In this document: piece by piece, positions 29,906 to 64,000 of the stretch
Position numbering within the stretch: position 1 is the first letter of the stretch
How the letters are laid out: each line of letters begins with the position of its first letter
Assembly: GCF_021533195.1 (NCBI RefSeq)
Contig: NZ_JAJNKB010000002.1
Span: 496,001 to 560,000 of the forward strand
Direction of reading: 5' to 3'
Source: Portibacter marinus
GTDB lineage: Bacteria > Bacteroidota > Bacteroidia > Chitinophagales > Saprospiraceae
Length of the DNA: 64,000 nucleotides
The notes under the pieces: generated by a model
Databases searched by the model: none
Told to the model about the DNA's origin: nothing
The model's input: the letters and a program-made list of their open reading frames with translations, nothing else
Made by a program: the position numbers and the translations under genes

Positions 29906-29973
29906 GCCATCATCAAATTGTCTATTCTGTAGGAATATGATTGTTGCAAACTTTACTTATAGACAAATTAATT

Positions 29974-29999
29974 TTTGCATATTAAAGGTTTAGTCTTTG
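29974..29999 (+). promoter_or_regulatory. Possible promoter before the second sulfatase
   Basis: TTTG at 29974-29977 and TAGTCTTTG at 29991-29999 resemble the -33 and -7 elements, but the spacing (about 14) is shorter than the usual 19 and the -7 has one extra base. Confidence 0.2.
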
Positions 30000-30063
30000 T
30001 AACATCATTAAAGAATATTTATCGCAGGTCGATTAATGTGGTCTGACAAAAGATTTTAAGTTT

Positions 30064-31653: not shown

Positions 31654-31658
31654 ATACA

Positions 31659-33053: not shown

Positions 33054-33775
33054 AAATGATAAGCAATAGAATATTGATCAGTTTTATAGTCCTTGCTTTC
33101 TTGTGTAGTGGTTTTTATGTCAATGGTCAGGCTGAAAGGAACGATTACTTGGATTCCATAAGAGCTCAGTTACAAGTCCATTGGCCTAAAAACAGGACCA
33201 TCAAACTGGTCTTTCATGGTCATTCCGTCCCTGCTGGATATTTCAAAAGTGGAAATGTGAAATCATTGGACTCCTATCCCTACTTAAGTCTGAAGAAACT
33301 CAATGAAATTTACCCATATGCTGTCATTAGCCCAATGGTTACCGCTATTGGTGGTGAACAATCTGAGCAGGGAGCTGAACGGTTTCAAAGAGATGTTCTG
33401 AAAATGCATCCTGACGTCATCTTCATTGATTATAGCTTAAATGATAGAAGTATTGGCCTGGAAAGTGCTGAGAAGTCCTGGAAGTTCATGATAGAAAGTG
33501 CATTGGCCAATGATATAAAGGTGATTTTGCTTACTCCGACGCCGGATCTAAGAGAAGATATCAGTGACCCAGAAACTCCATTGGCGAAACACGCCCGGCA
33601 AGTGAGGAATCTTGCTGAGCAATACCAAATCGGCATAGTGGACAGTTACGCGATTTTTCAACAACTCTCTGAGAAGGAGAATCTAAGCAACTACATGTCT
33701 CAAAACAACCATCTTAATGGCCTTGGCCATGATTTGGTGGCCAACAACATCATTAAGTATTTTCTAGAAGAGTGA
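33050..33775 (+). CDS. SGNH/GDSL-type hydrolase, secreted
   Basis: This 241-residue protein has an N-terminal signal segment (about 1-26, ending VNGQA). The SGNH fold is recognised by the block I nucleophile region FHGHSVPAGY (GHS in place of GDS), the block III segment FIDYSLNDRS, and the C-terminal NNHLNGLGHDLVA with the catalytic-type His. The usual Asp three residues before that His is absent (QNNH), which seems characteristic of this subfamily. It may be a carbohydrate esterase acting on the substrate of the adjacent sulfatases and transporter. It is translationally coupled to the sugar porter. Confidence 0.82.
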   Translation: MKMISNRILISFIVLAFLCSGFYVNGQAERNDYLDSIRAQLQVHWPKNRTIKLVFHGHSVPAGYFKSGNVKSLDSYPYLSLKKLNEIYPYAVISPMVTAIGGEQSEQGAERFQRDVLKMHPDVIFIDYSLNDRSIGLESAEKSWKFMIESALANDIKVILLTPTPDLREDISDPETPLAKHARQVRNLAEQYQIGIVDSYAIFQQLSEKENLSNYMSQNNHLNGLGHDLVANNIIKYFLEE

Positions 33776-46706: not shown

Positions 46707-47857
46707 TCAATCAAATGATTTGATAAACTTCCTATATTTTCACAACCCAGTTGTTCCATAATTTGTTGGAGTTCAGTTTTTAATATACTGATGACCTGAT
46801 CACCTCCTTCCTTTCCCAAAGCAGCTACACCGTACATAAAGGCTCTACCTAAAAATGTACACTCAGCACCTTTGGCAAGGGCACTAGCAATATCTGGCCC
46901 ACATCTTATTCCACTATCCATCATGATTTTAATCTTGCCTTTGCCCTCGGCACAAATTTCATCCATTGTAGAAATGGTGGAAGGACCATGATCAAGTTGT
47001 CTGCCTCCGTGATTCGAAGCAATTATTCCGTCTAAGCCAAATGCTATGGCTTTTTCTGTATCCTCAGCACTGGCCACTCCCTTTAAGACCAGGTTACCTT
47101 TCCATGAATCCCTCAATTGTTTCAGTCGATCATCATTGAGCCTTCCTGAAAAGGTGCGGTTCATGAATAATCCAAGATGTCTCAAACTAAGCCCCTTAGG
47201 AATATAGGGTTTTACCGTTTTAAATTCAGGCTGTCCGGCGAAAAGTGTGGACAGCGCCCACCTCGGATGAGTGGTTATTTGAACCATGTTTCTCCAGGTC
47301 ATTTTGGGAGGTATACTCAGCCCGTTTCTTATCTCTTTGGGGCGATATCCAAAAGTGGGTACGTCACTTAAGATGACCAATGTCTTGATGCCTGCCTCTT
47401 CGCACCTTCGCAGCAGTTTATCTCTCAGCTCTTCTTCTGCCGGATGATAAAGTTGAAACCATGACCTTCCGTTTGTTATTTCCGCAACCGTTTCGATGTC
47501 TGCTGTAGCTACTGTACTTAAGATAAAAGGAATATTATGCTCATGAGCAGCTTTAGCTAAAATTTCAGTAGCTCCTGGCCAAATTAACCCCTGGAGTCCC
47601 ACAGGTGCCACGCCAAATGGAGCATCATAAACTTCTCCAAATAATTCAGTGGATAAATTCAGCTTTTTAAACCCTCTTAAATAATAAGGCATTAATTGGA
47701 TTTCCCTCAGATCGGTTGTGTTCCTGGCTAAATTAATCTCATTGTTGCAACCTCCATCGACGTAATCGAAGGCAAAGCCGGGAATCCGCTTTCTGGCTTT
47801 TTCCCTTAGCATATCAACAGATGGGTATAATGGATTGATCTTAATTTCTTTAGCCAT
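46703..47857 (-). CDS. lldD: FMN-dependent L-lactate dehydrogenase-like enzyme
   Basis: This 384-residue member of the FMN-dependent alpha-hydroxy-acid oxidising family shows FAFDYVDGGCNNE (N-terminal), the active-site SNHGGRQLDHGPS, MDSGIRCGPDIASALAKGA and LGRAFMYG. The start MAKEIKINP at 47857 overlaps the rhaB stop by 8 bases; a longer frame upstream would bury rhaB codons. RhaW makes L-lactate from L-lactaldehyde, so this enzyme most likely oxidises that L-lactate to pyruvate. It is coupled to the downstream sulfatase by a 4-base overlap. Confidence 0.9.
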   Translation of the reverse strand: MAKEIKINPLYPSVDMLREKARKRIPGFAFDYVDGGCNNEINLARNTTDLREIQLMPYYLRGFKKLNLSTELFGEVYDAPFGVAPVGLQGLIWPGATEILAKAAHEHNIPFILSTVATADIETVAEITNGRSWFQLYHPAEEELRDKLLRRCEEAGIKTLVILSDVPTFGYRPKEIRNGLSIPPKMTWRNMVQITTHPRWALSTLFAGQPEFKTVKPYIPKGLSLRHLGLFMNRTFSGRLNDDRLKQLRDSWKGNLVLKGVASAEDTEKAIAFGLDGIIASNHGGRQLDHGPSTISTMDEICAEGKGKIKIMMDSGIRCGPDIASALAKGAECTFLGRAFMYGVAALGKEGGDQVISILKTELQQIMEQLGCENIGSLSNHLIE

Positions 47858-49238
47858 CTTCAAAATTACTAAGTATAAGTGGTTTATGTTTTTTAACGCC
47901 GTATTTCTTTTTGAGGAATTTTTTCCCGATTTCCTGGTCAGAAATGACCATAGCAGCACCTAAAGAACTGCCGAGGGCGGATTTGCTTGTCAAAATCTTT
48001 CGACGCGGAAATCGCTGACCCAAAACTTCGACAAATAATTCATTATCCACAAATCCTCCATCTACGAAAATTCTTTGATCTGTGTCTCCTTCGATGTACT
48101 TCAAATGTTGCACTTGCGTATCCACCAGCTCAATCATCAATCTATGATATGCTGCTTCAAAAGTGTCAAATTGATTCAAATCAGTATTTTCAGGTTGATC
48201 TCGCTCTGTCTCTATCACGTCAAATGAAAAGCTATTTTCATTATTAAGCTTTTGTTGTTCGTAAACTTCAGCATTGAATTTTACATCCTTATGAAAATCA
48301 GCGGGTTTATCAAAATGATTAGATAATTTTTGATTTTGGATTTGATACTCCTGACCCAAAAATAATCGACTTGCGCGAACCATGCTACCATCAATAGTCA
48401 TATAATTGAGGCAATCTGACTTTAATTCTGAAACACTCAGGTGATGTTTTGAATAAGGATTAAGCGCAATGCTCCACGTACCTGTAGAAATAAGGGTAAA
48501 AGGCTTTTTACTGCCTTTTAAATACGGAATCAATGCTGCAGAACTGTCATGTATGCCTACGCCGACTCTAATTTTTCTGTCATCGTAATTCATATTTATA
48601 CTGACATCGGTATCGACCAGTGGTCCCAATTTTGCAGCAATTCCTTCTTCATAGACCCAGTCATGATAATCACCACTTTCGAAATCCCACATCATGGTAT
48701 GGCATCCCAGACTGGTGTATTCACTGACAGGTATCCCTGTAAAAATATAACTCATGTATTGAGGCAGGTGAAGAGAATACTTAACCTGTTCGAAGATAGC
48801 AGGTTGGGTTTTTTTCAGCCAATAGAGCTGCAAACCACTTGAAAGCATTCCAGATGATGGTGAAGCAGTTTGAACACTAAGTTCATCTTCTCCACCATAT
48901 ATCTCAAACAAATCCTGGTAAATGGATTTTTCAATAGGTTTTGTATAATTGTAAAGTGGTGTAAGTGGCTTCCCATAAAGGTCTAAATGAACCAGAGTAG
49001 CTCCATAGGTGGAAAAGTTGATGGCTTTCACATCGTACTTTTCTGTTTTCATAATTCTATCAAAAAGCGCTTTCGCCCATATTTGTATAGCTTGAAGTTG
49101 GTCAGTTTCATAACCATCTTCATCCTTGATGGTTTCAAATTTTCTGTACTCTCTAAAGACTTCTTTGAAGTTTTCATCGAAAAGAAAGAATTTCTTATTG
49201 GTTTTTCCAATATCGAATATCGCGGTTACTTTCTGCAT
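47850..49238 (-). CDS. rhaB: L-rhamnulokinase (FGGY family)
   Basis: This 462-residue sugar kinase opens with the phosphate loop IFDIGKTNKK. It has the FGGY-family segments NFSTYGATLVHLD, GIHDSSAAL, LISTGTWSIALNP and IFVDGGFVDN...LGSSLGAAM. The gene context (isomerase upstream, aldolase fusion two genes upstream) identifies the substrate as L-rhamnulose, phosphorylated at C1. It belongs to the divergent kinase branch of Bacteroidota rhamnose loci, so specificity rests on context. It overlaps rhaI by 1 base (TAATG). Confidence 0.88.
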   Translation of the reverse strand: MQKVTAIFDIGKTNKKFFLFDENFKEVFREYRKFETIKDEDGYETDQLQAIQIWAKALFDRIMKTEKYDVKAINFSTYGATLVHLDLYGKPLTPLYNYTKPIEKSIYQDLFEIYGGEDELSVQTASPSSGMLSSGLQLYWLKKTQPAIFEQVKYSLHLPQYMSYIFTGIPVSEYTSLGCHTMMWDFESGDYHDWVYEEGIAAKLGPLVDTDVSINMNYDDRKIRVGVGIHDSSAALIPYLKGSKKPFTLISTGTWSIALNPYSKHHLSVSELKSDCLNYMTIDGSMVRASRLFLGQEYQIQNQKLSNHFDKPADFHKDVKFNAEVYEQQKLNNENSFSFDVIETERDQPENTDLNQFDTFEAAYHRLMIELVDTQVQHLKYIEGDTDQRIFVDGGFVDNELFVEVLGQRFPRRKILTSKSALGSSLGAAMVISDQEIGKKFLKKKYGVKKHKPLILSNFEDG

Positions 49239-50509
49239 TATAGTCCACTTGCCGATGAATCCATACCACGTTTTGCAATTAGATTATTGCGTATCTCCAG
49301 TGACCTGTAAGCATGTATAGGATCTAAGGCTGCCCCCACCTTTATTCTACTTTCTGCAACGAGAGGTCGCACATCCGTCCGATAAGCATCTTGCAATATT
49401 TGCTGACATTCGACCACATCTTGATTGAGCTGAGCGACTTTTAATTTTTCCTGATCAATGAGCAAAGCTTTAGCTCTGGCCACTAAAATTGCGTCCAGAC
49501 TTTGCATTAAATCTTCAATAGGATCTTTGAGATTGTGACTGGCATCAATCATCCATGCTAAGGCCGGATTGTCCGCCACATTATTATTCATTCCATAGAT
49601 CAGTTCATTGAAAATGAGGAAAAGTTGATATGGCTTAATGCTTCCAACTGTCAGATCATCATCACCATACTTACTATCATTAAAATGAAAACCTCCAAGT
49701 TTACCTTGGTAGATGAGGGTGGATACAATATTTTCAATGTTGGTATTGGGAAGATGATGTCCTAGATCCACTAAAGTATATGCTCTATCTCCAGTTTCAT
49801 TTGCCAGTAAAAAGGAGGTACCCCAGTCTTGAATTACCGTATGATAAAAATTGGGTTCATAAGGTTTGTATTCGATGAACATGGACCAATCGTCCGGCAT
49901 TCGTTGATAAATCTGAGCTAAACTATCGGCAGTATGGCCAAGTGTTCTTCTAAAATTGGCCTGTCCAGGAAAAGAAGATCCATCTGCCAGCCATACGGTA
50001 ATGGCTTTCGACCCCAGTGCATTGCCTATATCGATGACTTCGGAGTTATGCTCGATCGCCTGGTCACGAACACTTTTGTTTTCATTACAGAGAGAGCCAA
50101 ATTTATAGCTATGTGCCTGATTGGGTTGATCCTGAAAAGTATTTGAATTTACGGCGTCGAACTTCAAGCCAAGGGATTCCGCTTGTTGTTTTGTGGCTGA
50201 AGGATCATCCGGAATGTCCCACGGAATATGAAGAGAAATCGCATCTGCTGTTCCTGTTAAATCATTAATGATGCCCACATCATGAATCTTTTCTTCTAGA
50301 TTAGACGGCTCACCACCGATTCTGAACCTTCCAAATCTGGTACCGCCAGCACCAAGGGCCCAAGATGGTACTGCGACCTGAAAATCACTCAGATCTTTAA
50401 TGATTCTGTCTACGTTAACTCCTTTTACTTCCAATTCCTCACCTAGATGTGAAAGTTGATGTACATGCCTTTCATTGCGGGCATTCAGTTCCTGAATTTT
50501 CTCTTTCAA
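49238..50509 (-). CDS. rhaI: L-rhamnose isomerase, RhaI type
   Basis: This 423-residue TIM-barrel isomerase converts L-rhamnose to L-rhamnulose. The sequence (VPSWALGAGGTRFGRF near the start, IPWDIPD, the metal-site blocks FIEYKPYEP, LVDLGHHLPN and GFHFNDSKYGDDDL) fits the Pseudomonas-type RhaI rather than the E. coli RhaA. It begins 10 bases after rhaEW and is coupled to rhaB. Confidence 0.92.
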   Translation of the reverse strand: MKEKIQELNARNERHVHQLSHLGEELEVKGVNVDRIIKDLSDFQVAVPSWALGAGGTRFGRFRIGGEPSNLEEKIHDVGIINDLTGTADAISLHIPWDIPDDPSATKQQAESLGLKFDAVNSNTFQDQPNQAHSYKFGSLCNENKSVRDQAIEHNSEVIDIGNALGSKAITVWLADGSSFPGQANFRRTLGHTADSLAQIYQRMPDDWSMFIEYKPYEPNFYHTVIQDWGTSFLLANETGDRAYTLVDLGHHLPNTNIENIVSTLIYQGKLGGFHFNDSKYGDDDLTVGSIKPYQLFLIFNELIYGMNNNVADNPALAWMIDASHNLKDPIEDLMQSLDAILVARAKALLIDQEKLKVAQLNQDVVECQQILQDAYRTDVRPLVAESRIKVGAALDPIHAYRSLEIRNNLIAKRGMDSSASGL

Positions 50510-50519: not shown

Positions 50520-52622
50520 TTATCTCACAAACGCAGAGGCCATTCCTCCGTCGACATTTAAAATATTGCCTGTACTCTTCTTTGCCACCGCAAGGAAGGC
50601 AAAAACACCGTCAGCAATATCTGCAGGAAGAATGATTTCATTCAATAGATTTCTTTTAGCATAGTGTGCCGGCAATTCGTCTACATTGATTCCATATGCC
50701 TTGGCCCGGCCTTCAGCCCATTCTCCTTCCCATATCTTTGAACCTACTATGACACCATCAGGATTGACTGTGTTTACTCTGATTCCCTCGCTACCCAATT
50801 CCGCTGCCAATAATCTGCTCATGTGTTGTTGAGCGGCTTTAGCCGTACCATAGCCAACATTGTTAGGTCCCGAAACCAATCCATTTTTCGAAGCGATACT
50901 GATGATATTTCCACCCGTTCCCTGCTTCCTCATGATTTGTACTCCTTTCTGTGCCAATAAAAATTGCCCTTTGACCAGGACATTTTGAAGCAGTTCCCAA
51001 TCTTTACTTTCTGTTTCAGCAAGTGGCTTAGATATGGCTAGTCCGGCACTATGGACAATGATGTCTACCCCGCCAAATGCTAAAATGGCGGCTTCGTACA
51101 TGGCTTCAATAGAAGATTCTTTAGAAACATCAGCTACAGCATAGGCAGAGACATCCCTTCCCAGTTCAGCATCTATTTCTTTGAGATTTTCTTCGGTTAA
51201 ATCACTTAACAACACATTTGCACCTTCCAATGCCAATTTCTCAGCTATAGCTCTTCCGATACCACCTGCCGCACCCGTTACGACAGCTATTTTTCTTGAA
51301 AGTGGTTTTTCAGGAGGCTGCCTTTTGAGTTTGTCCTCTTCTAACAACCAATACTCTATATCAAATGCCTCTTGTCGAGGAAGTGAGGTATATTCTGAAA
51401 TGGCTTCCGCACCTCTCATCACATTGATAGCATTGGTATAAAATTCAGCAGCCACTCTCGCTGTTTGCTTGTTTTTAGCGAAAGTAAACATACCTACACC
51501 TGGATAAAGGATGACCACGGGATTAGGATCTCTCATGGGTGGTGAATTCGGATGCTTACAATTATCGTAGTATACTGCGTAATCAGCTCTATATTGAGTA
51601 AAAGCTGGTGCTAATTTAGCCTTGATGGATTCGTGATCAGTCAGATCTTCATTAGGACTTAAATCAAGCACAAGTGGTTTGATTTTGGTTCTCAAAAAAT
51701 GATCAGGACAGGATGTGCCCAGAGGAGCCAATTTTTCAAGGTCATGACTGTTTACAAACTGCAAGACTCTTGAGTCATCGGTGTAATGGCCAATCATGTC
51801 TTTATGAGAAGAGCAAAATCCCCTCAAGATCGGAGCCAGTAAGGTAGCTTGCGTCCTTCTTTTATCCTCTGGCAGACTTTTTACTTTTTCTCCGCCAAAA
51901 ACGGGACGATCTTTTCCTTCCCTTTCAGCAATATATTCTGAAGCCATTTCGATCACTTCCAAGCTATTGAGGTAACAGTCATAGGAGGTTTCACCCCAGG
52001 TAAAAAGGCCGTGACTACCCAAAACAATACCTCTAATTTCCGGATTATCATTCAGACATTTTTCGAGTTGAAGACCTAGATCAAAGCCAGGTCTTTGCCA
52101 GGGAACCCAACCCATTTTGTCGCCCCAAATTTCTTTGGTGATTTCTTTACCATTTTTCGCGGCAGCGATTGCAATAAGGGCATCAGGATGGAGGTGGTCA
52201 ATGTGTTTAAAGGGTAGTAATCCGTGCAAAGCGGTATCAATAGATGGAGCCCTGCTATCCAAATCGTATAAACAATGGTAGAACAAAGCGACCATTTCAT
52301 CTTCATGCTCTATTCCGCGATATACATTTTTCAAAGATCTTATTCGATCTGTATAAAGTCCAGCAATTCCAGACCTCGTAAGTGTGCCAATATCTCCACC
52401 TGATCCCTTTACCCACATCACTTCTACATCTTCCTTGGTTAAAGGATGTTTTTCAATTGTTTTGCAGCTGGTATTTCCACCACCATAATTGGTAATTCTT
52501 AAATCTGCTCCCAGGATATTTGATCGGTACAAAAATAAGGCGACTTGATCATCACCAAGAGAAGAAGCATGTTCTTCATCCCATAAAAAATTCACATGAT
52601 TAAATGTCTGTACCTCTTGCAT
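50520..52622 (-). CDS. rhaEW: L-rhamnulose-1-phosphate aldolase / L-lactaldehyde dehydrogenase fusion
   Basis: This 700-residue two-domain enzyme has an N-terminal class II aldolase-type domain (about 1-430), with the zinc-binding HIDHLHPDALIA region, GSHGLFTWG and ENPNYGGGNTS-like TNYGGGNTSCK. A C-terminal short-chain dehydrogenase domain (about 445-700) has VTGAAGGIGRAIAEKLALEG, the catalytic YGTAKAA and the ILNVDGGMASAFVR end. In characterised homologues the aldolase splits rhamnulose-1-P to DHAP and L-lactaldehyde, and the dehydrogenase oxidises the aldehyde to L-lactate. It heads the minus-strand rhamnose operon, opposite the GntR-type regulator. Confidence 0.93.
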   Translation of the reverse strand: MQEVQTFNHVNFLWDEEHASSLGDDQVALFLYRSNILGADLRITNYGGGNTSCKTIEKHPLTKEDVEVMWVKGSGGDIGTLTRSGIAGLYTDRIRSLKNVYRGIEHEDEMVALFYHCLYDLDSRAPSIDTALHGLLPFKHIDHLHPDALIAIAAAKNGKEITKEIWGDKMGWVPWQRPGFDLGLQLEKCLNDNPEIRGIVLGSHGLFTWGETSYDCYLNSLEVIEMASEYIAEREGKDRPVFGGEKVKSLPEDKRRTQATLLAPILRGFCSSHKDMIGHYTDDSRVLQFVNSHDLEKLAPLGTSCPDHFLRTKIKPLVLDLSPNEDLTDHESIKAKLAPAFTQYRADYAVYYDNCKHPNSPPMRDPNPVVILYPGVGMFTFAKNKQTARVAAEFYTNAINVMRGAEAISEYTSLPRQEAFDIEYWLLEEDKLKRQPPEKPLSRKIAVVTGAAGGIGRAIAEKLALEGANVLLSDLTEENLKEIDAELGRDVSAYAVADVSKESSIEAMYEAAILAFGGVDIIVHSAGLAISKPLAETESKDWELLQNVLVKGQFLLAQKGVQIMRKQGTGGNIISIASKNGLVSGPNNVGYGTAKAAQQHMSRLLAAELGSEGIRVNTVNPDGVIVGSKIWEGEWAEGRAKAYGINVDELPAHYAKRNLLNEIILPADIADGVFAFLAVAKKSTGNILNVDGGMASAFVR

Positions 52623-52788: not shown

Positions 52789-53823
52789 ATGGTAGAAACA
52801 AAGTCAAAATGGCATATTGAAATTGATCAGCTTTCAAAGAAACCAAAGTATTTACAAATTGTAGAATCTGTGATGAATGGAATTCAGGATGGTAAATTTC
52901 AAGCTGAATCCAGATTACCTTCTGTAAATACTTTGTTGAGAAGGCATGATATTTCCAGAGATACCATTGTTAAGGCATATAACAAACTCAAGAGAATGAA
53001 TGTCATTGAGTCTGTTCCAGGAAAAGGATATTATGTCAAAGGAACCGCAACTAAATCTACTAAGAAAATTCTATTGATTTTTAATAAATTAAGTCAACAT
53101 AAAAAGATTATTTACGATTCATTTGTCCATCATCTTGGGACAAATGCGCAGGTGGACTTCTATATTTACAACAATGATTATCGTTTATTTGAATCCCTAT
53201 TGGAGCCCAGATTAGAAGAGAACTATCATTACTTTGTCATCATTGGCCATTTTTTAGAGGGTGGTTTAAATGCCATTGACATACTCAACGAAATTCCCAA
53301 AAACAAGCTCCTTATTCTTGATAAAAACATCAAGGGCATAAGAGGTAGTTATGCCTCCGTATATCAGGATTTTGAATCCGACATTTTTAGGGTGCTCAAC
53401 GAAGCAACGACCAGACTACAGAAGTATCAGCGTCTAAAATTGATCTTTCCATATTACACTTATCAACCTAAGGAAATTGTATCTGGCTTCATTAGGTATT
53501 GCTCCGAACTCAACGTAGACTTTGAAGTGATTAAAGAGTTAAATTCCTATCAAATAGAAAAAGGAACTGCATATGTGGTCACTATGGAAGATGATTTGGT
53601 CACTTTAATAAAGAAGCAGAAGTCTGCTCATCTGGAAGCTGGAAAGGACATTGGCATTATATCGTATAATGAGACGCCATTAAAAGAAATACTTTTGGAT
53701 GGCATTACAACCATTTCTACAGATTTTGCACAATTGGGGAAAACAGCGGCAGAGTTGGTGACGAGTGGAGATAAGCTAAACGTGAAAAATCCTTTCCATA
53801 TTAAGTTCCGCAATTCCTTATAG
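52789..53823 (+). CDS. GntR-type regulator with periplasmic-binding-like effector domain
   Basis: This 344-residue protein has an N-terminal winged HTH of the GntR family (about 15-85; RLPSVNTLLRRHDISRDTIVKAYNKLKRMNVIESVPGKGYYV). The C-terminal effector domain (about 90-344) has the LacI/periplasmic-binding fold (YFVIIGHFLEGG, DIGIISYNETPLKEILLDGITTI). Regulators of this mixed type control rhamnose and other sugar loci in Bacteroidota. It is divergent from the rhamnose operon and precedes susC, so it probably regulates one or both; the effector is presumably L-rhamnose or L-rhamnulose. A TATATTTC at 52774-52781, only 8 bases before the ATG, hints at a very short or absent leader. Confidence 0.88.
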   Translation: MVETKSKWHIEIDQLSKKPKYLQIVESVMNGIQDGKFQAESRLPSVNTLLRRHDISRDTIVKAYNKLKRMNVIESVPGKGYYVKGTATKSTKKILLIFNKLSQHKKIIYDSFVHHLGTNAQVDFYIYNNDYRLFESLLEPRLEENYHYFVIIGHFLEGGLNAIDILNEIPKNKLLILDKNIKGIRGSYASVYQDFESDIFRVLNEATTRLQKYQRLKLIFPYYTYQPKEIVSGFIRYCSELNVDFEVIKELNSYQIEKGTAYVVTMEDDLVTLIKKQKSAHLEAGKDIGIISYNETPLKEILLDGITTISTDFAQLGKTAAELVTSGDKLNVKNPFHIKFRNSL

Positions 53824-53952: not shown

Positions 53953-56900
53953 ATGAAAAAACTGACCCATTACTTAAGCGTCATGATCATGGCGTGCATT
54001 TCTATTTCTATTTCTGCTCAAACCGTTACAGGTAAGATAACGGATGAAGATGGCAACCCTTTGATAGGGGTCAATATTGTATTAGCAGATGGCGATGGAT
54101 TAGGTACAACCAGTGATATCGATGGAAATTACAGCCTGAATGTTGCAGGAGCTGATGGCCCCATTCTTTTCAGTTATGTAGGTTTTGAGGTTCAAACCGT
54201 ACCCATCAATGGAAGATCAACCATCAATATTGTCCTAAGTGAGAATGAAGAGATGCTTGATGAAGTGGTCATCATCGGATATGGCGAAGTTAAGAAGCGA
54301 GACCTGATAGGTTCCGTGGGAACGATTAGTACTAAGCAAATCGAACAGCAACCCATCACTACTTATAATCAGGCCCTCGCCGGACAGATTGCAGGTGTAC
54401 AAGTAAGGCAGGGAACCGGAGTTCCTGGAGGTGGTCCCGAGTTCTTAATCAGAGGAATCAATTCAATTTCACCTCAGAGCGCTCCCCTGATTGTGATCGA
54501 TGACATTCCTATAGGAAATTACAATGCCGAGCGTGATAACTTTCTAACCTTAATCAATCCTGATGACATCGAATCGATCAGTGTGATCAAGGATGCTTCG
54601 GGTAAGGCCATTTATGGCAGTAGGGCAGCCAATGGCTTGGTGATCATTAAAACCAAAAGGGGACAACCAAGTGAACCTACCATAAAGTATAATTCCTCTT
54701 ATGGATTGCAAACCATTCCTTCCTGGGAGGTTCCTAACATCATGAATGCGACAGAATTGGCCACATTTCACAGAGAGCGATTTAGGGATGAATTCTTTTT
54801 GAAGAATGGCGTTTTCCCTACAGAAGATGAAATTCCTGAGCATGTTAGAAACCCTAGCCAGTATGGAGAGGGAACGGATTGGTTCGGAGCATTGACGCAG
54901 AATGGTTTCATGCAAAATCACAATCTGAATTTGTCCGGAGGGACCAAGAATTTGAGATATAGCTTAAGTGCTGGTTTTCTGGATCAGGAAGGGGTAGTCA
55001 TTGAATCTGGTCTGAAACGTTATACCATGCGATTAAATATGGATGCTAAGGTTAAACCGTGGTTGGACCTAAATATTGGTCTGGCTCCTAGTTGGACAGA
55101 CAATCGCACTGGGAATACTGATCCCGGCTCGGGCCAATTCTCGGTCTATAGCGTATTAAATGTAGCCAGATGGGCGGATCCAACTGGGCAGATTTATGAT
55201 GAAAATGGCAACTTGACCAGAGATACCAGAGGTGTATTAACCCAGTTTTATCAGGTCAATCCCGTCAGGTATCTAATGGAACAGCAAAACAGTAAGCAAA
55301 ACAGAAGCATCCAGGCCAATATCGGAGCTACAGTTAGACTTGGAAAAGGCTTTGCATTCAGAACGACAGCCAGTAGCTTTTATTTTAATAATAGAGGGAG
55401 GGGCTTTGTGCCTGCAAGCATATCCGCTAGTGGCTTAGAGCCTGCATTTACGAATACACAGGCTTTCGTAAATGTGGGTCGTTATGAAAACTTGCGATTA
55501 CTCTCTGAGAACAAATTGACTTATAACAAGACTTTCAACAAAGCGCACAACATTGATGGATTACTGGCTTATACTGCAGAATGGACTCAAGAAACGACCT
55601 TGGGTGGTTCAGCAAGCAGAGTCATCAATGAAGATTTTATTCTTTTGAATAGTGGTAACAATGTTCCAAGGGTAAACGATGTAGGAGAACCCGCATTTTA
55701 TTACGGCGTGAATGAGGGTATCAGCGAACAAACATTGTTGAGTTACACCAGCCGAATAAAATACAACTACAGGGAAAAATATTACTTAGGTGTTTCAGTT
55801 CGTGCTGACGGAAGCAGTCGATTCGGTCCTGGTAACAGGTATGGCGTTTTTTCAGCATATGAATTAGGCTATCGACTTTCAGATGAACCATGGTTCCCTA
55901 AATCTGATCTATTGTCCAATGTTAAATTGGAAGCAATCTACGGTACTACAGGCGCTAATCGTATTGGCAACTATGCCTGGAGAGGTAGTGTAGGTAGATC
56001 AGATTACATCATCGGAGGAGAAGAGGTTAACGGTAGTGCGGTTAATGCTCTGCCTAATCCAAGCCTTAAATGGGAAGAAACCAAGCAATTCGATTTGGGT
56101 TTGGATATAGGCCTTTTTACGAATAAATTAAATCTCGAGGTCGATTATTACATCGCCAATACAGAAAATCTATTATTTGGAGTGCCTACTCCTGCTGTTA
56201 CAGGATTTGGTAGCAGAATAGATAATTTAGGAGCTATCCAGAACAAAGGTGTAGAAGTAGCCATTAATGCTACTCCTTATCTAAAGAAAGATTTTGCGTG
56301 GACGATTAATGCCAACTTTACCGTGAATCGTAACAAAGTTTTGAAGATCGGAGCGGAAGATAGGCCCATATTTACTATCCCAGCTGGAAATGGAACAAGA
56401 GCTGGTATAGTTCAGGTAGGGTCGCCAATAGGTTTATTCAGAGGTCTAAAATTACTAGGATTATACACCGAAGAGATGCTTGAGGATCCTGATGTGCCCA
56501 AATATCCGGGTGCAGTCGTAGGTGCGCCTTTCTATGAAGATTTTGATGGAAGTGGAACCTTGGATCGAAACGAAGATATTCAGATTCTTGCCAGTCCGTG
56601 GGAGACATTTTCATTTGGATTTACAAATAATGTGACTTGGAAAGACTGGAATTTGAGGGTGGTTACTTATGGTAATTACGGAAGTAAAATTTTAGATCTT
56701 TCAAGAGAGTTTATGCAAAATACTGATTTAGGAAATGGAGATTTTCTGGGTGTTTTTAATCTCGATCGGGAAGTGCAGGGTAGATGGCGACCCGGTGATA
56801 CGGACTTTAACACCATAAGAGTACCTTCTACAGCCACTGCTTCCAGTAGCCAGCGATGGAGGTGGCCTAACTCGAGTGGCATAAAGGATGGTTCTTACGT

Positions 56901-57132
56901 GAAAATAGCCAATATCACGTTGACTTATAGACTGACCAGTCTGGCCAAACAATGGGCTTTTCTACAAAATGCGTCAGCATATTTTTCAGCACAAAATGTA
57001 GGTTATATTTCACCCTACGACGGTAACCCAGAAATACGTAGAGCTACAGGTGGAATACTGGAACGAAATGTTAATTACAGTAGTTATCCGGTGCCTAGAA
57101 TATTCACATTTGGACTAAATATTGAATTGTAG
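53953..57132 (+). CDS. SusC/RagA-type TonB-dependent receptor
   Basis: This 1059-residue outer-membrane receptor has a signal peptide (ending ISISAQ) and a carboxypeptidase-regulatory-like domain (about 23-105; GKITDEDGNPLIGVNIV). A TonB-box-like LDEVVIIGYGEVKKRDLIGSV, a plug (about 115-225; PLIVIDDIPIGNYN, SRAANGLVIIKTKRG) and a long barrel ending FTFGLNIEL follow. With the SusD partner directly downstream it forms a pair that imports oligosaccharides through the outer membrane. Context suggests sulfated rhamnose-rich oligosaccharides. Confidence 0.96.
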   Translation: MKKLTHYLSVMIMACISISISAQTVTGKITDEDGNPLIGVNIVLADGDGLGTTSDIDGNYSLNVAGADGPILFSYVGFEVQTVPINGRSTINIVLSENEEMLDEVVIIGYGEVKKRDLIGSVGTISTKQIEQQPITTYNQALAGQIAGVQVRQGTGVPGGGPEFLIRGINSISPQSAPLIVIDDIPIGNYNAERDNFLTLINPDDIESISVIKDASGKAIYGSRAANGLVIIKTKRGQPSEPTIKYNSSYGLQTIPSWEVPNIMNATELATFHRERFRDEFFLKNGVFPTEDEIPEHVRNPSQYGEGTDWFGALTQNGFMQNHNLNLSGGTKNLRYSLSAGFLDQEGVVIESGLKRYTMRLNMDAKVKPWLDLNIGLAPSWTDNRTGNTDPGSGQFSVYSVLNVARWADPTGQIYDENGNLTRDTRGVLTQFYQVNPVRYLMEQQNSKQNRSIQANIGATVRLGKGFAFRTTASSFYFNNRGRGFVPASISASGLEPAFTNTQAFVNVGRYENLRLLSENKLTYNKTFNKAHNIDGLLAYTAEWTQETTLGGSASRVINEDFILLNSGNNVPRVNDVGEPAFYYGVNEGISEQTLLSYTSRIKYNYREKYYLGVSVRADGSSRFGPGNRYGVFSAYELGYRLSDEPWFPKSDLLSNVKLEAIYGTTGANRIGNYAWRGSVGRSDYIIGGEEVNGSAVNALPNPSLKWEETKQFDLGLDIGLFTNKLNLEVDYYIANTENLLFGVPTPAVTGFGSRIDNLGAIQNKGVEVAINATPYLKKDFAWTINANFTVNRNKVLKIGAEDRPIFTIPAGNGTRAGIVQVGSPIGLFRGLKLLGLYTEEMLEDPDVPKYPGAVVGAPFYEDFDGSGTLDRNEDIQILASPWETFSFGFTNNVTWKDWNLRVVTYGNYGSKILDLSREFMQNTDLGNGDFLGVFNLDREVQGRWRPGDTDFNTIRVPSTATASSSQRWRWPNSSGIKDGSYVKIANITLTYRLTSLAKQWAFLQNASAYFSAQNVGYISPYDGNPEIRRATGGILERNVNYSSYPVPRIFTFGLNIEL

Positions 57133-57136
57133 AACA

Positions 57137-58636
57137 ATGAGAAATCTAACATATATTTTGGCCATCTTTTTGGTCTTAGGTTGTGGGGAAGAGTTTTTAG
57201 ATCGATCGCCTTACAGCTATTACACTCCTGAAGAATTTTATTCGAATGAGACGCAAGTAACTGAAGCTGTTAATGCACTTTATCCCGTTATTCGTGGGTT
57301 TTACACCGGAGCCAATTGGATATTGGGAGAGTTCCGAACAGACAATACTACATTTCAATATAATCCAGCAGATCGTGGGGCACAAGCTTTTGAAAGTCAT
57401 GACTATTTTCTGAGCGACGCTTCTAATGGCACTTTTTCATCACTATGGGATAATGCCTACCGCGGTATCGCAAGGGCTAATTTCTTGCTTGAAAACATAG
57501 ATGACGTTGTTTTTGACGATGAATCTGTGAAACAAGCCAGGATTGGAGAGACCAGATTTGCCAGAGCTTTTTATTATTATTTTCTGGTCAATTATTTTGG
57601 AGATGTGCCCTTTGTCGATCAGGTTTTACTAGATACAGATGCAGCAGGTAATTTACGGAGAGAAGATTTTAACCGAATCATTGATGAGATTATATTACCT
57701 GATTTAGAGATAGCAATTGACAACTTACCTATGAGATGGAGCCGTGCTAATGAAGGCAGGGCAAGTCAGGCTGCAGCTTTAATGCTAAAAGCGAGAATTC
57801 ACTTTTTTCGCGAAGAATATGAGCAAGCATTACCAGCTCTCCAAATGGTATGTGATAGTGATGAATATGCCTTGAACAGTAACTATGAAGATGCATTTAA
57901 CCCACAGAACAGATATGATAATGATGAAATTATTTTTGCCGCTCAATTTTTAAGCGTTGCCAATCAAGGAGCAGGTTTTTTTCTACAATGGCTACCCAAT
58001 TCAAGTGGCCAGGATTTAACAGGTGAAAATGGGATCAATATCGGAAGCCTAAATGGAAAGAATATTCCTACCAGAGACATGGTTCGGGCATTTGCAGACA
58101 ACGATAAGAGAAAAGATGCGAGCATTGCATTTTATGTTTATGAACAGGATATGGATACAGTCCCCTATATCAAGAAATACTTTTATCCACCAGTAGTGGC
58201 AGGAGGAAGTGACATTAATTTACCGATATTCAGATATGCGGAGACATTGTTAATGAAATGTGAGGCTATGACCATATTGGAAGGCTTATCTGATGAAGCC
58301 ATTTTTATACTAAATGATATTAGATCCAGAGCAGGCTTATCTCCGGTTTTTCCCGGAAATCCCAATGACGATCTTAACGTAGATACACCGGAAAAGCTAT
58401 TGGAACTCATTAGGAAGGAGCGGCGTCTAGAACTCGCCTTCGAGGGCTTACGGTACTCTGACTTAATCAGATACGGTACATTTAGAGAGGTCATGTTGGC
58501 CCATGGAGAAGAACAAAAGGAATATCAGGATTTCTTGGAAGAATTTCCTGATGCATACACTAACATTCAAGAGAAAATAGCCATACCATTCAACGAGATC
58601 TTAGTCTACGGATATAGACAAAATGAAGGTTGGTAG
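57137..58636 (+). CDS. SusD/RagB-type glycan-binding lipoprotein
   Basis: This 499-residue lipoprotein begins MRNLTYILAIFLVLGC (Cys16), then the typical EEFLDRSPYSYYTPEEFYSNE. It contains the helical TPR-like SusD fold (ARIGETRFARAFYYYFLVNYFG) and the C-terminal LLELIRKERRLELAFEGLRYSDLIR motif. It binds glycans at the surface and closes the SusC channel. The ATG at 57137 is used; an earlier codon would overlap susC. It starts 4 bases after the susC stop. Confidence 0.96.
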   Translation: MRNLTYILAIFLVLGCGEEFLDRSPYSYYTPEEFYSNETQVTEAVNALYPVIRGFYTGANWILGEFRTDNTTFQYNPADRGAQAFESHDYFLSDASNGTFSSLWDNAYRGIARANFLLENIDDVVFDDESVKQARIGETRFARAFYYYFLVNYFGDVPFVDQVLLDTDAAGNLRREDFNRIIDEIILPDLEIAIDNLPMRWSRANEGRASQAAALMLKARIHFFREEYEQALPALQMVCDSDEYALNSNYEDAFNPQNRYDNDEIIFAAQFLSVANQGAGFFLQWLPNSSGQDLTGENGINIGSLNGKNIPTRDMVRAFADNDKRKDASIAFYVYEQDMDTVPYIKKYFYPPVVAGGSDINLPIFRYAETLLMKCEAMTILEGLSDEAIFILNDIRSRAGLSPVFPGNPNDDLNVDTPEKLLELIRKERRLELAFEGLRYSDLIRYGTFREVMLAHGEEQKEYQDFLEEFPDAYTNIQEKIAIPFNEILVYGYRQNEGW

Positions 58637-58653: not shown

Positions 58654-61600
58654 ATGAATATGAAAAGATTTTACTTATTGATGTTGATTACAGCTTGTGC
58701 GGCATGGAGTTTTGCACAAAGTGTGGAGACATTTGACTATGTAACAGGAGAAACACTGATCGGAAAAGATGGAGGAACAGGCTTTTCTACGGCTTGGGAA
58801 GACGCGAAAAGTACCGAACAGGCGGTGATAGGAGAGGGAGGAATAGAAGTTCCAGCAATTGCAGGGGCTACCACTAATAATCACCTATACATTGCTCACG
58901 ATGGGGAAGGAGGCCCTAGATTGGTAAGGTTATTAGCGGAGCCTGTCACTGACGATGGAAACACTTATTACATGTCATGGATCATGGATGCGGACTATGA
59001 CGATCCCGCAGCTAACGGAAGCGTGTTTCAGACTATGCTGATCATAGCAGGAGGCTTAGGACCTTCAGGGCCTGGTGGTCAAACTGTTCGTATGGGTAAA
59101 ATTTTCAATACTGAACGATTCGGAGTTGACGGACAGCGGGTATCAGGTGGTGCCAAATTTATCGAAGGTACAGATACAAGAGATGCCTATTGGGCAGTTG
59201 CTATAATCCAAATGTCAGGCGATGAAATGGAGGAAACCATATCTATTTTTATCAACCCGGACACGAGTGAAGGCCTGGATCCGGTCAACGCAGATTTACA
59301 ATTCACCGCAGAACTAAATACAGGTTTTGATGCCATCGGTGCCAAACTAGAAGGTGGTGCAAATCTGGAAGGTCGGTTGGATGAACTGCGATTCGGTTCT
59401 TCATTAGAAGAAGTGACACCTATGGATTTAATTGCCATCGATCCTATACCAGTAGCTGCTTCAGAACCTTTTAACTACGATGTAGCTGACAGTTTAAACG
59501 CCAAGGATGGTGGAGATGGATTTGCTTCAGCGTGGGAGTTTAAAAAAGGAAATGATCAGGCAGTCATAGGCGAAGGTGGATTGGAAGTTGAAGCTATCAA
59601 TGCCATCACATCTAACAATCACTTGCTGGTGTCTCATGTTGCTGGTGAATCAGGTGCCCGATTTATTAGAAATTTAGAGGTCCCTGTTAAGGATGATGGA
59701 GAAACCTATTGGATGTCATGGATCATGGATAACGACTATGAAAACCCGGAAGAAAATGGCAGTGTATTTCAAACAATGATTTTACTTTCAGCAGGCTTTG
59801 GAGCAAGTGGACCAGGTGGACAGACTGTCAGAATGGGAAAAATATTTAATACAATAAATTTTGGTGTAGATGGTCAGCGAGTTGCAGGAGGATCCAAATT
59901 TATTGATGAAACAGATACAAGAGAAGCATATTGGGCCGTAGCCAGAATTGATATGTCCGGTGACGAAAACAATGAAACGATTTCTATTTATATTAATCAG
60001 GATGCTTCTAATGGATTAGATACTATGAACGCAGACCTGATATTTGAAGCGCAATTAAATGAAGGTTTTGATGCAATAGGAGCTAAGCTGGAAGGGCCTG
60101 CATCTTTGACTGGATTTTTAGATGATTTGCGATTTGGTCCTAGATTAATAGATGTAATACCGGATGATTTGGGAGTATTAAATACAGGAGTGGTCTTATC
60201 ATCAGAGCCATTTGACTATGAAGTTGGCGATACACTAAATCTTTTAAGTGGTGGTAGAGGATGGTTAGACTCCTGGGATACGAAGAAAGGTAATATCCAA
60301 ACTTCTATTAAAGAAGGTGGTCTTGGAGTTGAATCTTTAAATGTCTTAACATCTAATAATCACTTACAAATAGATCATCTTGCAGGAGATGAAGGTGTCA
60401 GAGGTATCCGTAAATTGGAAGTTCCAGTCACTGATGATGGAGATGTATATTGGATGTCATGGTTTATGGATGTAGATTTTGAAGATGTTGAATCAAATGG
60501 AAGCGTATTTCAGGCCATGTTATTGAAAAGCGCTGGTTTTGGTGCTGCAGGTCCCGGAGGACAAGTGGTACGAATGGGGAAAATCTTTAATACTGAAAAT
60601 GTTGGTGTTGATGGTCAGAGAGTGACAGGAGGAGTGAAACTTCTTCCGGGTACAGATACCAGAAACGCATATTGGGCCGTAGCCAGAATCGAGATGTCAG
60701 GTGATGACGCAGATGAAACGATTGCATTGTATATAAATCAAAATGCAACCAATGGATTGGACACAAATAGCGCTAACCTCATATTTAATGCTCAGTTAAA
60801 TGATGGTTTTGATGCGGTGGGCTTCAAATTGGAAGGTGGGGCACCACTTGTTGGATTTATGGATGATTTGCGTTTTGGACCTAGTCTAGAATCTGTTGTA
60901 CCCGAAGATCTTGAAGTTCTCAATGTAGGTGTGGTACCAGCTTTTGAAAAATTTGACTATGCTGAAGGTGAATCGCTCGAAGGAAAAGCAGGTGGTATAG
61001 GGTTCTCTACCAACTGGCAATTGAAAAAAGGTGATGCACAGACTATCATTGAGAGTGGCGGAATTGATATACTAAGTATGGGAGTAGCCACCTCAGGCAA
61101 TTCTTTGGCGATAATCCATAATGAGGGAGACGAAGGAGTAAGATTTGTAAGAGACTTGACCTCTCCGGTACCAGACGATGGAGAAACATATTATTTATCA
61201 TGGGTAATGGACTCCGATTATAGTCTGCCTGAAGAAAATGGAAGTGTTTTACAGGCGATGATCATCAAGTCAGCTGGATTTGGAGCAGGAGGTCCAGGAG
61301 GTCAGATGGTGAGAATGGGAAAGATCGCTAATTCATCAAACTTTGGTGTGGACGGACAAAGAGTTACAGGTGGAGGTGGTGCTGTAGAGGGCACCAGTAC
61401 TATGGAGGCATATTGGGCAATAGCAGAGATCAAAATGTCTGGCGATGATACTGATGAAACCATCCATATATATATCAATCCAGATGTCTCTGATGGCTTG
61501 GATGCATTAACCCCAGATGCGGTTGTTACTGCCCAGCTGAACGACGGTTTTGAAGGTATTGGTGCAAAACTAGAAGGACCTTCTGCACTCAATGGTAAAA

Positions 61601-63357
61601 TGGACGAACTCAGATTCGGTCCTGAACTTGAGGATGTCATTCCAGACGACTTAGAGGCTCTTGTTCCAGGTTCTGCCTATGATGGTTTTGACTATGAGGT
61701 TGGATCATCAGTCGAAGGTTTAAATGGTGGCGAAGGTTGGTCAGGACCATGGAGTACTGCTGAAGGTGCGGTTGATGCAGGAACGATAGCTGAAGGGTCT
61801 ATTTCGAGTGATCGTACTGATGGCATAGCCAATAAATATGCTATTCAACAAGACAACAATGTGGTTTCCGCTCAAAGAAGTTTCAGATTAGCCTACGGAT
61901 TGAATCCAGGGGAAGTCTGGTCAAGCACATTAATTGATGTAGAGAGTAAAGGAATCGGTAATCAGTTGACGTTTGGTTATGTTAATCAAAATGATGAGAT
62001 GATCGCCGGCTTTGGAGGTGCACAAGGTTTAGCACAGTTTGTATTTTTCGATGGTGAATTCAATGCCACCACAAGTGAAATTGATCTCACTGGACCTAAA
62101 TGGGTGGTATCTAAATTTGTATTCAATGATGACTCAGATGATCAGCTTTTCATGTGGATCAATCCTACAGCAGATGCTATACCTGCCGAAAACAATGCCG
62201 ATTACACCTTGTCAGGCAGTTTCGAGAACGGTGTGAATTCCTTTAAGGTCGTGGCCTCAGGAGTTCAAGCCACTACAGCTAATATAGATGAATTGCGAAT
62301 GGGCATTTCCTTCAGAGAAGTTTCTCCTAAATTTGGAAGTGACGATCCTAATTTGATTGCTTACGAGCCTTTTAACTACGATGCAGGTGATGAAATTGTG
62401 GGTTCTGGAGGAATCAATGCTTTTTGGGATGGCACCTGGCAAAACTTTAATCCTCTTGAGGAAAATGTACAATTGATAGCTGAAAGCAGCCTTCAATATC
62501 AAGATGTCGAAGAAAGTATCGGAAATAAAGCAAGAATTGAATTTGTAACTGAAGGGACAGAAGTTCATATCGACCGTCCCTTAGCTTTTCCACTGGTGGA
62601 TGATGGACGAACTTATTGGTTGACTTTCTTAATGAATTCTGAAGAAACACCAGCTAGAAATAACGTAGGTAACATAACGTTGAGAAATACCAATGAGGGA
62701 AACAAGCAAGGTCAGATGATTGCATTTGGTCGAATTTATGGAACAGGAAATCTTGGTGCAATAACACCTCAAAACAACAATCCTACAGCAATCGAAGACA
62801 AGCCGGACGTTGGTTTAAACTGGATAGTGGTCAAAATGGTAATGAATGGTACTGAAGAGCCTGACTCTGTGTTCATGTGGGTCAATCCAGACCCTTATAC
62901 GGAGCCGGATACCGCTAATGCGGATCATTTTAGAAGAACGCCATATTTAAACAACGGCATTGATGTGATTAGGATGAAAGTGGCAGGAGCTGGAGCAGAT
63001 CAGGTTCCATATAATCTGGAATTTGATGAAATTAGATTGGCCACAGAGTGGCAATCAGCAACTTTCCCATCAAATACGATTGAGCTGGATCCACAGGATG
63101 TATTTGAACTTCTAGCTTATCCTAATCCTGCACAATCAGAGATTAACATAGAATTTGAGATTAAGAAGCGAGGTTCAGTATCCATGGATCTTTATGACAA
63201 CCAGGGAAGACTGGTCCGCAACCTGGTCACGAGAAAGCTTGCAAAGGGAAAGCATTTTGTCACCGAGAATATTAGTAATCTGCAAAATGGGTTCTATTAC
63301 CTACGATTAAAGCAGGATAATCAGTCTACCTTAAGGAAAATTATCATCTTTAAGTAA
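58654..63357 (+). CDS. Giant secreted protein of six tandem repeat modules with T9SS sorting domain
   Basis: This 1567-residue protein has a signal peptide (ending WSFAQ) and then six tandem modules of about 245 residues. Each begins with an F-(D/N)-Y motif at residues 27, 273, 520, 767, 1012 and 1240. Modules 1-4 are close copies, sharing SNNHL, DDG-TYWMSW, NGSVFQ, GPGGQ-VRMGKIFNT, GVDGQRV-GG, YWAVA-I-MSGD, INP/INQ and DELRFG or DDLRFG. Modules 5 and 6 are more divergent. A type A sorting domain ends it (YPNPAQSEINIEF...KIIIFK). Module 6 is most like the module in the sulfatase at 43.7 kb (LRNTNEG, AFGRIYG, WVNPDPYTEP). No enzyme motif is seen; by position after susCD it may be a surface glycan-binding protein. 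I do not recognise a named family; a LamG-like jelly roll is possible. Confidence 0.85.
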   Translation: MNMKRFYLLMLITACAAWSFAQSVETFDYVTGETLIGKDGGTGFSTAWEDAKSTEQAVIGEGGIEVPAIAGATTNNHLYIAHDGEGGPRLVRLLAEPVTDDGNTYYMSWIMDADYDDPAANGSVFQTMLIIAGGLGPSGPGGQTVRMGKIFNTERFGVDGQRVSGGAKFIEGTDTRDAYWAVAIIQMSGDEMEETISIFINPDTSEGLDPVNADLQFTAELNTGFDAIGAKLEGGANLEGRLDELRFGSSLEEVTPMDLIAIDPIPVAASEPFNYDVADSLNAKDGGDGFASAWEFKKGNDQAVIGEGGLEVEAINAITSNNHLLVSHVAGESGARFIRNLEVPVKDDGETYWMSWIMDNDYENPEENGSVFQTMILLSAGFGASGPGGQTVRMGKIFNTINFGVDGQRVAGGSKFIDETDTREAYWAVARIDMSGDENNETISIYINQDASNGLDTMNADLIFEAQLNEGFDAIGAKLEGPASLTGFLDDLRFGPRLIDVIPDDLGVLNTGVVLSSEPFDYEVGDTLNLLSGGRGWLDSWDTKKGNIQTSIKEGGLGVESLNVLTSNNHLQIDHLAGDEGVRGIRKLEVPVTDDGDVYWMSWFMDVDFEDVESNGSVFQAMLLKSAGFGAAGPGGQVVRMGKIFNTENVGVDGQRVTGGVKLLPGTDTRNAYWAVARIEMSGDDADETIALYINQNATNGLDTNSANLIFNAQLNDGFDAVGFKLEGGAPLVGFMDDLRFGPSLESVVPEDLEVLNVGVVPAFEKFDYAEGESLEGKAGGIGFSTNWQLKKGDAQTIIESGGIDILSMGVATSGNSLAIIHNEGDEGVRFVRDLTSPVPDDGETYYLSWVMDSDYSLPEENGSVLQAMIIKSAGFGAGGPGGQMVRMGKIANSSNFGVDGQRVTGGGGAVEGTSTMEAYWAIAEIKMSGDDTDETIHIYINPDVSDGLDALTPDAVVTAQLNDGFEGIGAKLEGPSALNGKMDELRFGPELEDVIPDDLEALVPGSAYDGFDYEVGSSVEGLNGGEGWSGPWSTAEGAVDAGTIAEGSISSDRTDGIANKYAIQQDNNVVSAQRSFRLAYGLNPGEVWSSTLIDVESKGIGNQLTFGYVNQNDEMIAGFGGAQGLAQFVFFDGEFNATTSEIDLTGPKWVVSKFVFNDDSDDQLFMWINPTADAIPAENNADYTLSGSFENGVNSFKVVASGVQATTANIDELRMGISFREVSPKFGSDDPNLIAYEPFNYDAGDEIVGSGGINAFWDGTWQNFNPLEENVQLIAESSLQYQDVEESIGNKARIEFVTEGTEVHIDRPLAFPLVDDGRTYWLTFLMNSEETPARNNVGNITLRNTNEGNKQGQMIAFGRIYGTGNLGAITPQNNNPTAIEDKPDVGLNWIVVKMVMNGTEEPDSVFMWVNPDPYTEPDTANADHFRRTPYLNNGIDVIRMKVAGAGADQVPYNLEFDEIRLATEWQSATFPSNTIELDPQDVFELLAYPNPAQSEINIEFEIKKRGSVSMDLYDNQGRLVRNLVTRKLAKGKHFVTENISNLQNGFYYLRLKQDNQSTLRKIIIFK
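58732..63068 (+). repeat. Six in-gene tandem repeats of about 740 bases
   Basis: Coding repeats begin at 58732, 59470, 60211, 60952, 61687 and 62371. The spacings are 738, 741, 741, 735 and 684 bases, all multiples of three. The first four are close in protein sequence but clearly different at the DNA level, indicating old duplication followed by selection, not recent expansion. Confidence 0.85.
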
Positions 63358-63474: not shown

Positions 63475-64000
63475 ATGAAAAGAATAATACTGCTGTCATA
63501 CTTGATGTTTTTCCACTGGACCTTGTCCAATGCTACAGATGAAATTGAGGGAAATTGGATTACATTAGCGAATCTGGACACCACAACGAAGGCTAATTTG
63601 TGGCTAGGATTCACCAAAGAAATTGATTGGGATCGGAGCGAACCATCTGCACATATCCGTATTGCCGGAGATACTAAATTTTGGTTATGGGTGAATGAAA
63701 AGCTGATTTTGAGAGAGGGTGGACTCAAATGGGGCCCTTCTAGAGATTCCTACTACATAGATACCATTAGCCTCGATAATTATCTCTCAGAAGGGAAAAA
63801 TAAGATAAGCATTGCATTGTGGCATTTTGGGAAGGACGGTTTTGCACATAAGAATAGTGGTATAGCAGCCCTTAAGATCGATAGCGATCATTTTGATTTC
63901 GTAACCAACGAATCTTGGGAAGTAGGTAAAATAGAATGTTTCACCGATCAACATGAAGGTCCTAAGCCGAATTGGCGATTGGCGGAATCAAATATTGTAT
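63475..64000 (+). CDS. Secreted rhamnosidase-like protein, N-terminal part (cut by window edge)
   Basis: The first 175 residues are open to the window end. A signal peptide (KRIILLSYLMFFHWTLSNA) is followed by a beta-sandwich that resembles the N-terminal carbohydrate-binding-type domain of GH78 alpha-L-rhamnosidases and related sugar hydrolases: FTKEIDWDRSEPSAHIRIAGDTKFWLWVNEKL, LDNYLSEGKNKISIALWHFG. The catalytic part lies outside. The context of rhamnose catabolism supports a rhamnosidase, but a beta-galactosidase-type jelly roll cannot be excluded. Confidence 0.6.
   Translation, partial: MKRIILLSYLMFFHWTLSNATDEIEGNWITLANLDTTTKANLWLGFTKEIDWDRSEPSAHIRIAGDTKFWLWVNEKLILREGGLKWGPSRDSYYIDTISLDNYLSEGKNKISIALWHFGKDGFAHKNSGIAALKIDSDHFDFVTNESWEVGKIECFTDQHEGPKPNWRLAESNIV

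Follow-up and report, generated by a model that had tools for sequence, protein, structure and literature searches.

Canonical surface glycan-binding proteins (SGBPs) are lipoproteins anchored to the external side of the outer membrane. The closest described systems belong to the SGBP-B type, defined as multi-module binders that are not SusD and are encoded next to the SusC and SusD (SusCD) genes, with CHU_1279 of Cytophaga hutchinsonii among the SGBP-B or SusE-SusF-type proteins (PMC12016534). The stretch of DNA analyzed here, 64,000 nucleotides of the Portibacter marinus genome (the window), includes an open reading frame (58654-63357, + strand) that encodes a 1,567-amino-acid protein composed of six repeated modules. 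Like SGBP-B, it is encoded with the SusCD pair of a polysaccharide utilization locus (PUL), has several domains predicted to be beta-sandwiches, and has no SusD match. The protein is a genuine component of the PUL, conserved within its lineage, and its module has a known fold but no named family. Our preferred reading, to which we assign a probability of about 0.62, is that it is a multivalent SGBP-B-like protein, exported by the type IX secretion system (T9SS) and predicted to bind glycan, in a PUL for a sulfated, rhamnose-containing polysaccharide. This reading rests on the T9SS tail, the homology of the six modules, the structural model of module 2, the linkage to one SusCD lineage, and the surrounding glycoside hydrolase family 78 (GH78), sulfatase and rhamnose catabolism genes.

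Modules 1 to 4 share 55-66% pairwise identity, and modules 5 and 6 show 22-27% identity with the other modules. A profile made from modules 1 to 4 only matched module 6 at E 1.6e-19 and module 5 at E 5.1e-12 (database size set to 1000), indicating that the six modules are true copies rather than chance resemblances. The original prediction, made from the sequence of the window, had proposed six repeats with shared landmarks and a T9SS ending. The open reading frame, the profile and the PF18962 match bear out the repeats and the ending. The landmarks hold in part: F-(D/N)-Y starts all six modules, but NGSV, VRMGK, MSGD and LRFG are confined to modules 1 to 4, DDG-TYW is missing from module 5, and modules 5 and 6 end in DELRMG and DEIRLA, respectively. 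The T9SS tail is present in all nine complete proteins of this kind, and the window genome encodes T9SS machinery (SprA_N, E 1.4e-125, plus C25 peptidase genes). A lipobox-like ITAC is present at the N-terminus of the window copy. Inspection by eye of the N-termini of four relatives (L025, L024, G750 and G839; G and L are our handles for genomes and loci) did not find a lipobox, and cleavage by signal peptidase I is therefore favored. By its sequence, the protein is a predicted T9SS type A cargo, with the signal peptide recognized by eye only.

Structure prediction of module 2 produced a confident model, a concanavalin A (ConA)-like lectin/glucanase beta-sandwich, which agrees with the jelly-roll anticipated by the original prediction. 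Types E and F (see below) are expected to be ConA-like as well, by homology to module 2. None of the modules has a match over the cut-off in Pfam or NCBIfam when the whole protein is scanned, and extending the Pfam scan to E 10 added on the modules only RNase_T (0.011) and DUF3085 (0.06), both below cut-off. Twenty single modules from four genomes, scanned against Pfam to E 0.1, yielded one DUF4989 match (0.065) and none over the cut-off. Laminin_G_3 and other named families were dismissed because none reaches the gathering score. Comparison by sequence with solved structures found nothing convincing (best E 0.42 with the A1 profile, no match to E 10 with the A5 profile), and a description of the module was not found in the titles or abstract openings of the literature searched. 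The module is an unnamed one with a known fold and a predicted role of a familiar kind, in a protein of unusual build.

A search of 398 genomes from the family of the window genome found the module in 22 at E <= 1e-12. The tandem protein occurs in ten genomes: the window genome, G753 (a Lewinellaceae metagenome-assembled genome), G981 (a Phaeodactylibacter metagenome-assembled genome), G750, G839, G855, G937, G1048, G903 and G1046. Loci L024 and L025 were treated as belonging to G981 and G753, respectively, and each was counted once; counts of complete proteins (n = 9) exclude the L024 protein, which is interrupted by a contig end. In all ten genomes the tandem gene immediately follows a homologous SusCD pair, the place after susD that had been pointed out as typical of SGBPs. 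A GH78 homologue lies within the stretch fetched in eight of the ten, directly downstream in six, and was confirmed by Pfam in three. When the window SusD was searched against 388 genomes, the same ten were recovered (the query and nine homologues at 44-54% identity, E <= 1e-120). A weaker homologue outside the ten, in G893 (38%, E 1e-76), is followed by two sulfatase-like genes, and no open reading frame of at least 150 amino acids in that stretch contains the module. The G893 stretch (L146, G893:C89), which carries the nearest SusD outside the tandem genomes, is rich in sulfatases and has two SusCD pairs. Both samples were drawn from one larger family and are possibly not identical. Since the best few candidates per genome were scored (three in the SusD search, seven in the 398-genome module search), absences from a genome rest on a first look.

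The SusC and SusD genes are immediately upstream of the six-module gene on the same strand (Table 1). Past the window, the GH78 gene is followed by a sulfatase and then a sulfate permease gene on the opposite strand. The G753 cluster includes rhamnose isomerase-, kinase- and aldolase-like genes, several sulfatases, GH2, GH43 and GH78. By established pathways, this gene set probably serves to import and degrade a sulfated polysaccharide that contains rhamnose, and this context narrows the substrate from the algal polysaccharide initially suggested to a glycan of that class.

Table 1. Features of the six-module gene, its neighbors and the single-module proteins (window positions unless a locus is named).
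Feature	Position	Strand	Evidence or remark
Signal peptide, residues 1-21	58654..58716	+	Translation judged by eye
Module 1, type A, residues 22-267	58717..59454	+	Type by tree
Module 2, type A, residues 268-514	59455..60195	+	ConA-like beta-sandwich model; predicted local distance difference test (pLDDT) 93.8, predicted template modeling score (pTM) 0.91
Module 3, type A, residues 515-761	60196..60936	+	Type by tree
Module 4, type A, residues 762-1006	60937..61671	+	Type by tree
Module 5, type E, residues 1007-1234	61672..62355	+	Type by tree
Module 6, type F, residues 1235-1474	62356..63075	+	Type by tree
T9SS type A C-terminal sorting domain, residues 1489-1565	63118..63348	+	PF18962 (Por_Secre_tail) E 1e-14; TIGR04183 E 2.6e-12
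GntR-type regulator with periplasmic-binding-like domain	52789..53823	+	PF00392, PF13377
SusC/RagA TonB-linked outer membrane transporter	53953..57132	+	TIGR04056 782 bits, cut-off 368; Pfam Plug, CarbopepD_reg_2
SusD-like surface protein	57122..58636	+	PF07980 E 3e-26; PF14322 E 5e-24
GH78-like alpha-L-rhamnosidase, gene start; 725 amino acids, runs past window (L005:1476-3653)	63475..64000	+	PF17389 E 1.4e-29
T9SS-tailed sulfatase, CSPTR motif at residue 69	43722..46706	-	PF00884 E 1.2e-47; PF18962 E 9e-7
Type F module of the sulfatase, residues 664-899, before its own tail	44010..44717	-	33% identity to module 6, E 6e-48
Possible degenerate type E module of the sulfatase, residues 461-663	44718..45326	-	Weak, E 0.06
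FMN-dependent dehydrogenase, probably L-lactate	46703..47959	-	PF01070; best NCBIfam L-lactate dehydrogenase, below cut-off
FGGY kinase, probably rhamnulokinase	47850..49238	-	PF00370; best NCBIfam TIGR02627, far below cut-off
L-rhamnose isomerase-like	49238..50509	-	TIGR02629 497 bits, cut-off 647
Bifunctional rhamnulose-1-phosphate aldolase/short-chain dehydrogenase	50520..52622	-	TIGR02632 957 bits, cut-off 568
Single-module protein, own module type	L066:2343-3386		347-448 amino acids (range of the six)
Single-module protein, own module type	L118:4186-5244
Single-module protein, own module type	L119:16073-17119
Single-module protein, own module type	L120:2523-3671
Single-module protein, own module type	L121:18230-19369
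Single-module protein, own module type	L123:7654-9000

Other features of the window were observed in passing. A GH113-type glycosidase (41872-42876, + strand; PF22612 E 1e-49) lies beyond the sulfatase end of the locus. A second sulfated-glycan cluster (28517-33775, + strand) contains, in series, two sulfatases, a sugar transporter (PF00083) and a GDSL esterase; its sulfatases are only distantly related to the PUL sulfatases. An 898-amino-acid T9SS (CHU_C) protein (22000-24696, - strand), otherwise without a Pfam match at E 0.001, approaches the six-module protein in its low net charge, and the sole Pfam match of a 457-amino-acid protein (19763-21136, - strand) is a T9SS tail.

A tree of 66 modules, which excludes those from GH20, GEVED, kelch and other proteins, separated types A to F plus a type s found in single-module proteins. 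The tandem proteins read AAAAEF in the window, ABCDEF in G753, AB and then cut in G981, CDCDEF in G750, G839, G855, G937 and G1048, ACDEF in G903, and CDEF in G1046. Type E is penultimate and type F last, followed by the tail, in all nine complete proteins, and the E-F junction, FGSxDPxL..YEPFNY, is kept in every one of them. The end modules of the window and G753 sulfatases group with type F, and the penultimate module of the G753 sulfatase, a clear module where the window enzyme has its possible degenerate stretch, clusters with type E through a long branch. The same groups are recovered by the SusCD tree (window alone; G753 and G981; G903 and G1046; the five CDCDEF genomes), which makes a single origin of the CD duplication probable. 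The fourfold A array was observed only in the window lineage. Nonsynonymous divergence (dN) between orthologous modules of the CDCDEF genomes is 0.12-0.29, with a ratio to synonymous divergence (dN/dS) <= 0.19, where dS, calculated by NG86, is near saturation and could be estimated for 10 of 18 pairs. Among the window A modules the ratio is 0.16 and 0.18 for the two of six pairs that could be estimated.

Taken with the gene context, these architectures suggest how an SGBP-B-like protein could operate. It would cross the outer membrane through the T9SS and remain on the surface, where modules 1 to 4 would hold the polymer, probably one ligand with avidity, as they are four copies of one type. 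The E-F pair forms a conserved tail that may co-locate the protein and the sulfatase, whose end module is also type F. Sulfatases and the rhamnosidase would then trim the polysaccharide chain, the SusCD pair would import the fragments, and the adjoining catabolic genes would degrade the rhamnose.

An alternative is that the modules mainly set a distance from the SusCD complex or organize it, docking enzymes through E-F, with glycan contact being secondary. The constancy of size would fit, since seven of the nine complete proteins have six modules (1,521-1,567 amino acids) despite three different builds (AAAAEF, ABCDEF, CDCDEF), as would the invariable E-F-tail with its junction, the type F module that also ends the sulfatase, and the PUL spacer role proposed for DUF1735 (PMC11216935). 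Nonetheless, we consider it unlikely. Six modules are not a rule because two of the nine carry five or four, lectins and glucanases have this fold, and related modules are placed behind enzymes as binding modules are. A more elaborate version of the SGBP-B-like reading is comparably speculative. It would have a self-assembling surface complex in which the E-F-tail docks the sulfatase and the glycan-binding array at one SusCD pair, the first four modules being exchangeable, shuffled, re-amplified in each lineage and selected for a total of about six as a ruler of length or valency, and the module founding a new carbohydrate-binding module family.

The module is also found in other proteins. Counting the window genome, it was matched in 3 of 60 relatives, 22 of 150 genomes of the family sample, 11 of 298 of the order sample (E <= 1e-10), 7 of 295 of the class sample and, using a narrower query, 2 of 395 of the phylum sample. 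A genome-contig search with the modules 1 to 4 query returned two loci, and close relatives were not found in viral contigs. Similar modules occur in Verrucomicrobiota and Planctomycetota; the genome samples used here are from within the phylum. The Pfam scan of loci with weaker matches covered seven proteins, with others (e.g., L073, L076 and L129-L134) outside it, and identified three GH20 proteins, one kelch/galactose-oxidase-like protein, two GEVED proteins and one without matches. Two more module proteins were assigned to GH20 from their 73-74% similarity. GH20 proteins of about 2,000 amino acids carry three to five module matches behind the enzyme (L068:5311-11226; L071:7991-14536, where two of the five may be one split module; L128:4113-10358, GH20 by similarity only). 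A single-module protein that is probably secreted (Table 1) adjoins a sulfatase in six genomes; in G903 it lies far from the tandem gene. Of the three single-module proteins scanned, one has a T9SS tail over the Pfam cut-off, one just under it, and one has no match. Their neighboring sulfatases fall into one subfamily with the module-fused catalytic domains of the window and G753 (43-49% among the matches listed), which suggests a working link between sulfatase and module. The occurrence of the sulfatase as fused in some genomes and adjoining a single-module gene in others could be a sign of partnership, but one weakened by the sulfatase tree, which leaves the branching order open, and by the best score of the window's fused domain, which is with another G750 sulfatase. 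As to the proposal of a new glycan-associated domain, the module is indeed unnamed and present on carbohydrate-active enzymes; its fold is known, and it is restricted neither to the six-module protein nor to glycan settings, as it also occurs in enzyme-free GEVED proteins.

This distribution bears on whether the protein could be a general adhesin, one for cell attachment to algal or detrital surfaces that is only co-expressed with the PUL. The protein is large, repetitive, T9SS-tailed and acidic, with the lowest net charge among 11 compared proteins (-9.1 per 100 residues; SusD, -6.9), and its module family is also found together with GEVED domains. However, the ties to one SusCD lineage (10/10) and to GH78 (8/10) would be odd for an adhesin, and we regard this explanation as improbable. 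Least probable of all is that some modules are unrecognized ConA-like hydrolases or lyases making the endo cut in the backbone: GH16 endo-glucanases are among the solved structures nearest to the module 2 model, the GH113-type glycosidase is the only endo-acting enzyme recognized among the scanned neighbors, and one of 66 modules, module 2, carries a loose E.D(1-2)E pattern, but the strict GH16-like motif (ExDx(x)E, hydrophobic x) is in none of the 66, for which reason GH16-type catalysis was dismissed in line with the original prediction, only W27, R72, G128, G214 and D223 (module 2 numbering) are invariant in a 61-module alignment (the 66 minus L025d1, L025d2, L025S1, G981d1 and G981d2), and related modules are C-terminal to complete enzymes.

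Several points weigh against the SGBP-B-like reading. Glycan binding is what we infer, and a common fold by itself demonstrates no function. Canonical SGBPs are lipoproteins and this protein looks like T9SS cargo. Because it is very acidic, simple electrostatic binding of a sulfated polymer is disfavored, and binding would have to rely on calcium bridging or a desulfated face. The module is in GEVED proteins free of enzyme domains (2/7) and in a protein without Pfam matches (1/7). The module-fused sulfatases have their closest relatives elsewhere than among the sulfatases next to single-module proteins: the fused domain of the window comes closest to a G750 sulfatase without such an adjoining module gene. 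Neither the kinase nor the isomerase reaches its NCBIfam cut-off, and G903 lacks GH78 in the stretch fetched. Overall, the sequence observation behind the original prediction is confirmed and its interpretation is supported in part.

PUL proteins, sulfatases and GH20 enzymes in one bacterial family, and with weaker support outside it, carry an unnamed module family, so one binding assay could annotate many proteins. The results suggest that the SGBP position in a PUL can be taken by a T9SS cargo protein. The series AAAAEF, ABCDEF, CDCDEF, ACDEF and CDEF is a natural one for the effects of valency and module choice on substrate capture. Coverage of this likely substrate class seems sparse, as rhamnan was not met among the papers listed in the literature searched with that term.

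Compared with known systems, the six-module protein resembles SGBP-B and SusE-SusF in being a PUL-encoded surface protein other than SusD, with multiple beta-sandwich modules in variable number. It differs from SGBP-B in that a T9SS type A tail replaces the lipid anchor, and in that its six ConA-like modules, whose binding is predicted, have no sequence relation found to a named family. Members of the ConA-like fold (GH16, calreticulin, ERGIC-53/Emp47 and the BT_1020 domain 415-613) share 6-13% sequence identity with the module, which has neither the strict GH16 motif nor a Pfam match over the cut-off. The modules are homologous by profile to the C-terminal accessory modules of GH20 enzymes and sulfatases of the same bacterial family; whereas those are one to five matches behind an enzyme, the six-module protein is a free-standing array.
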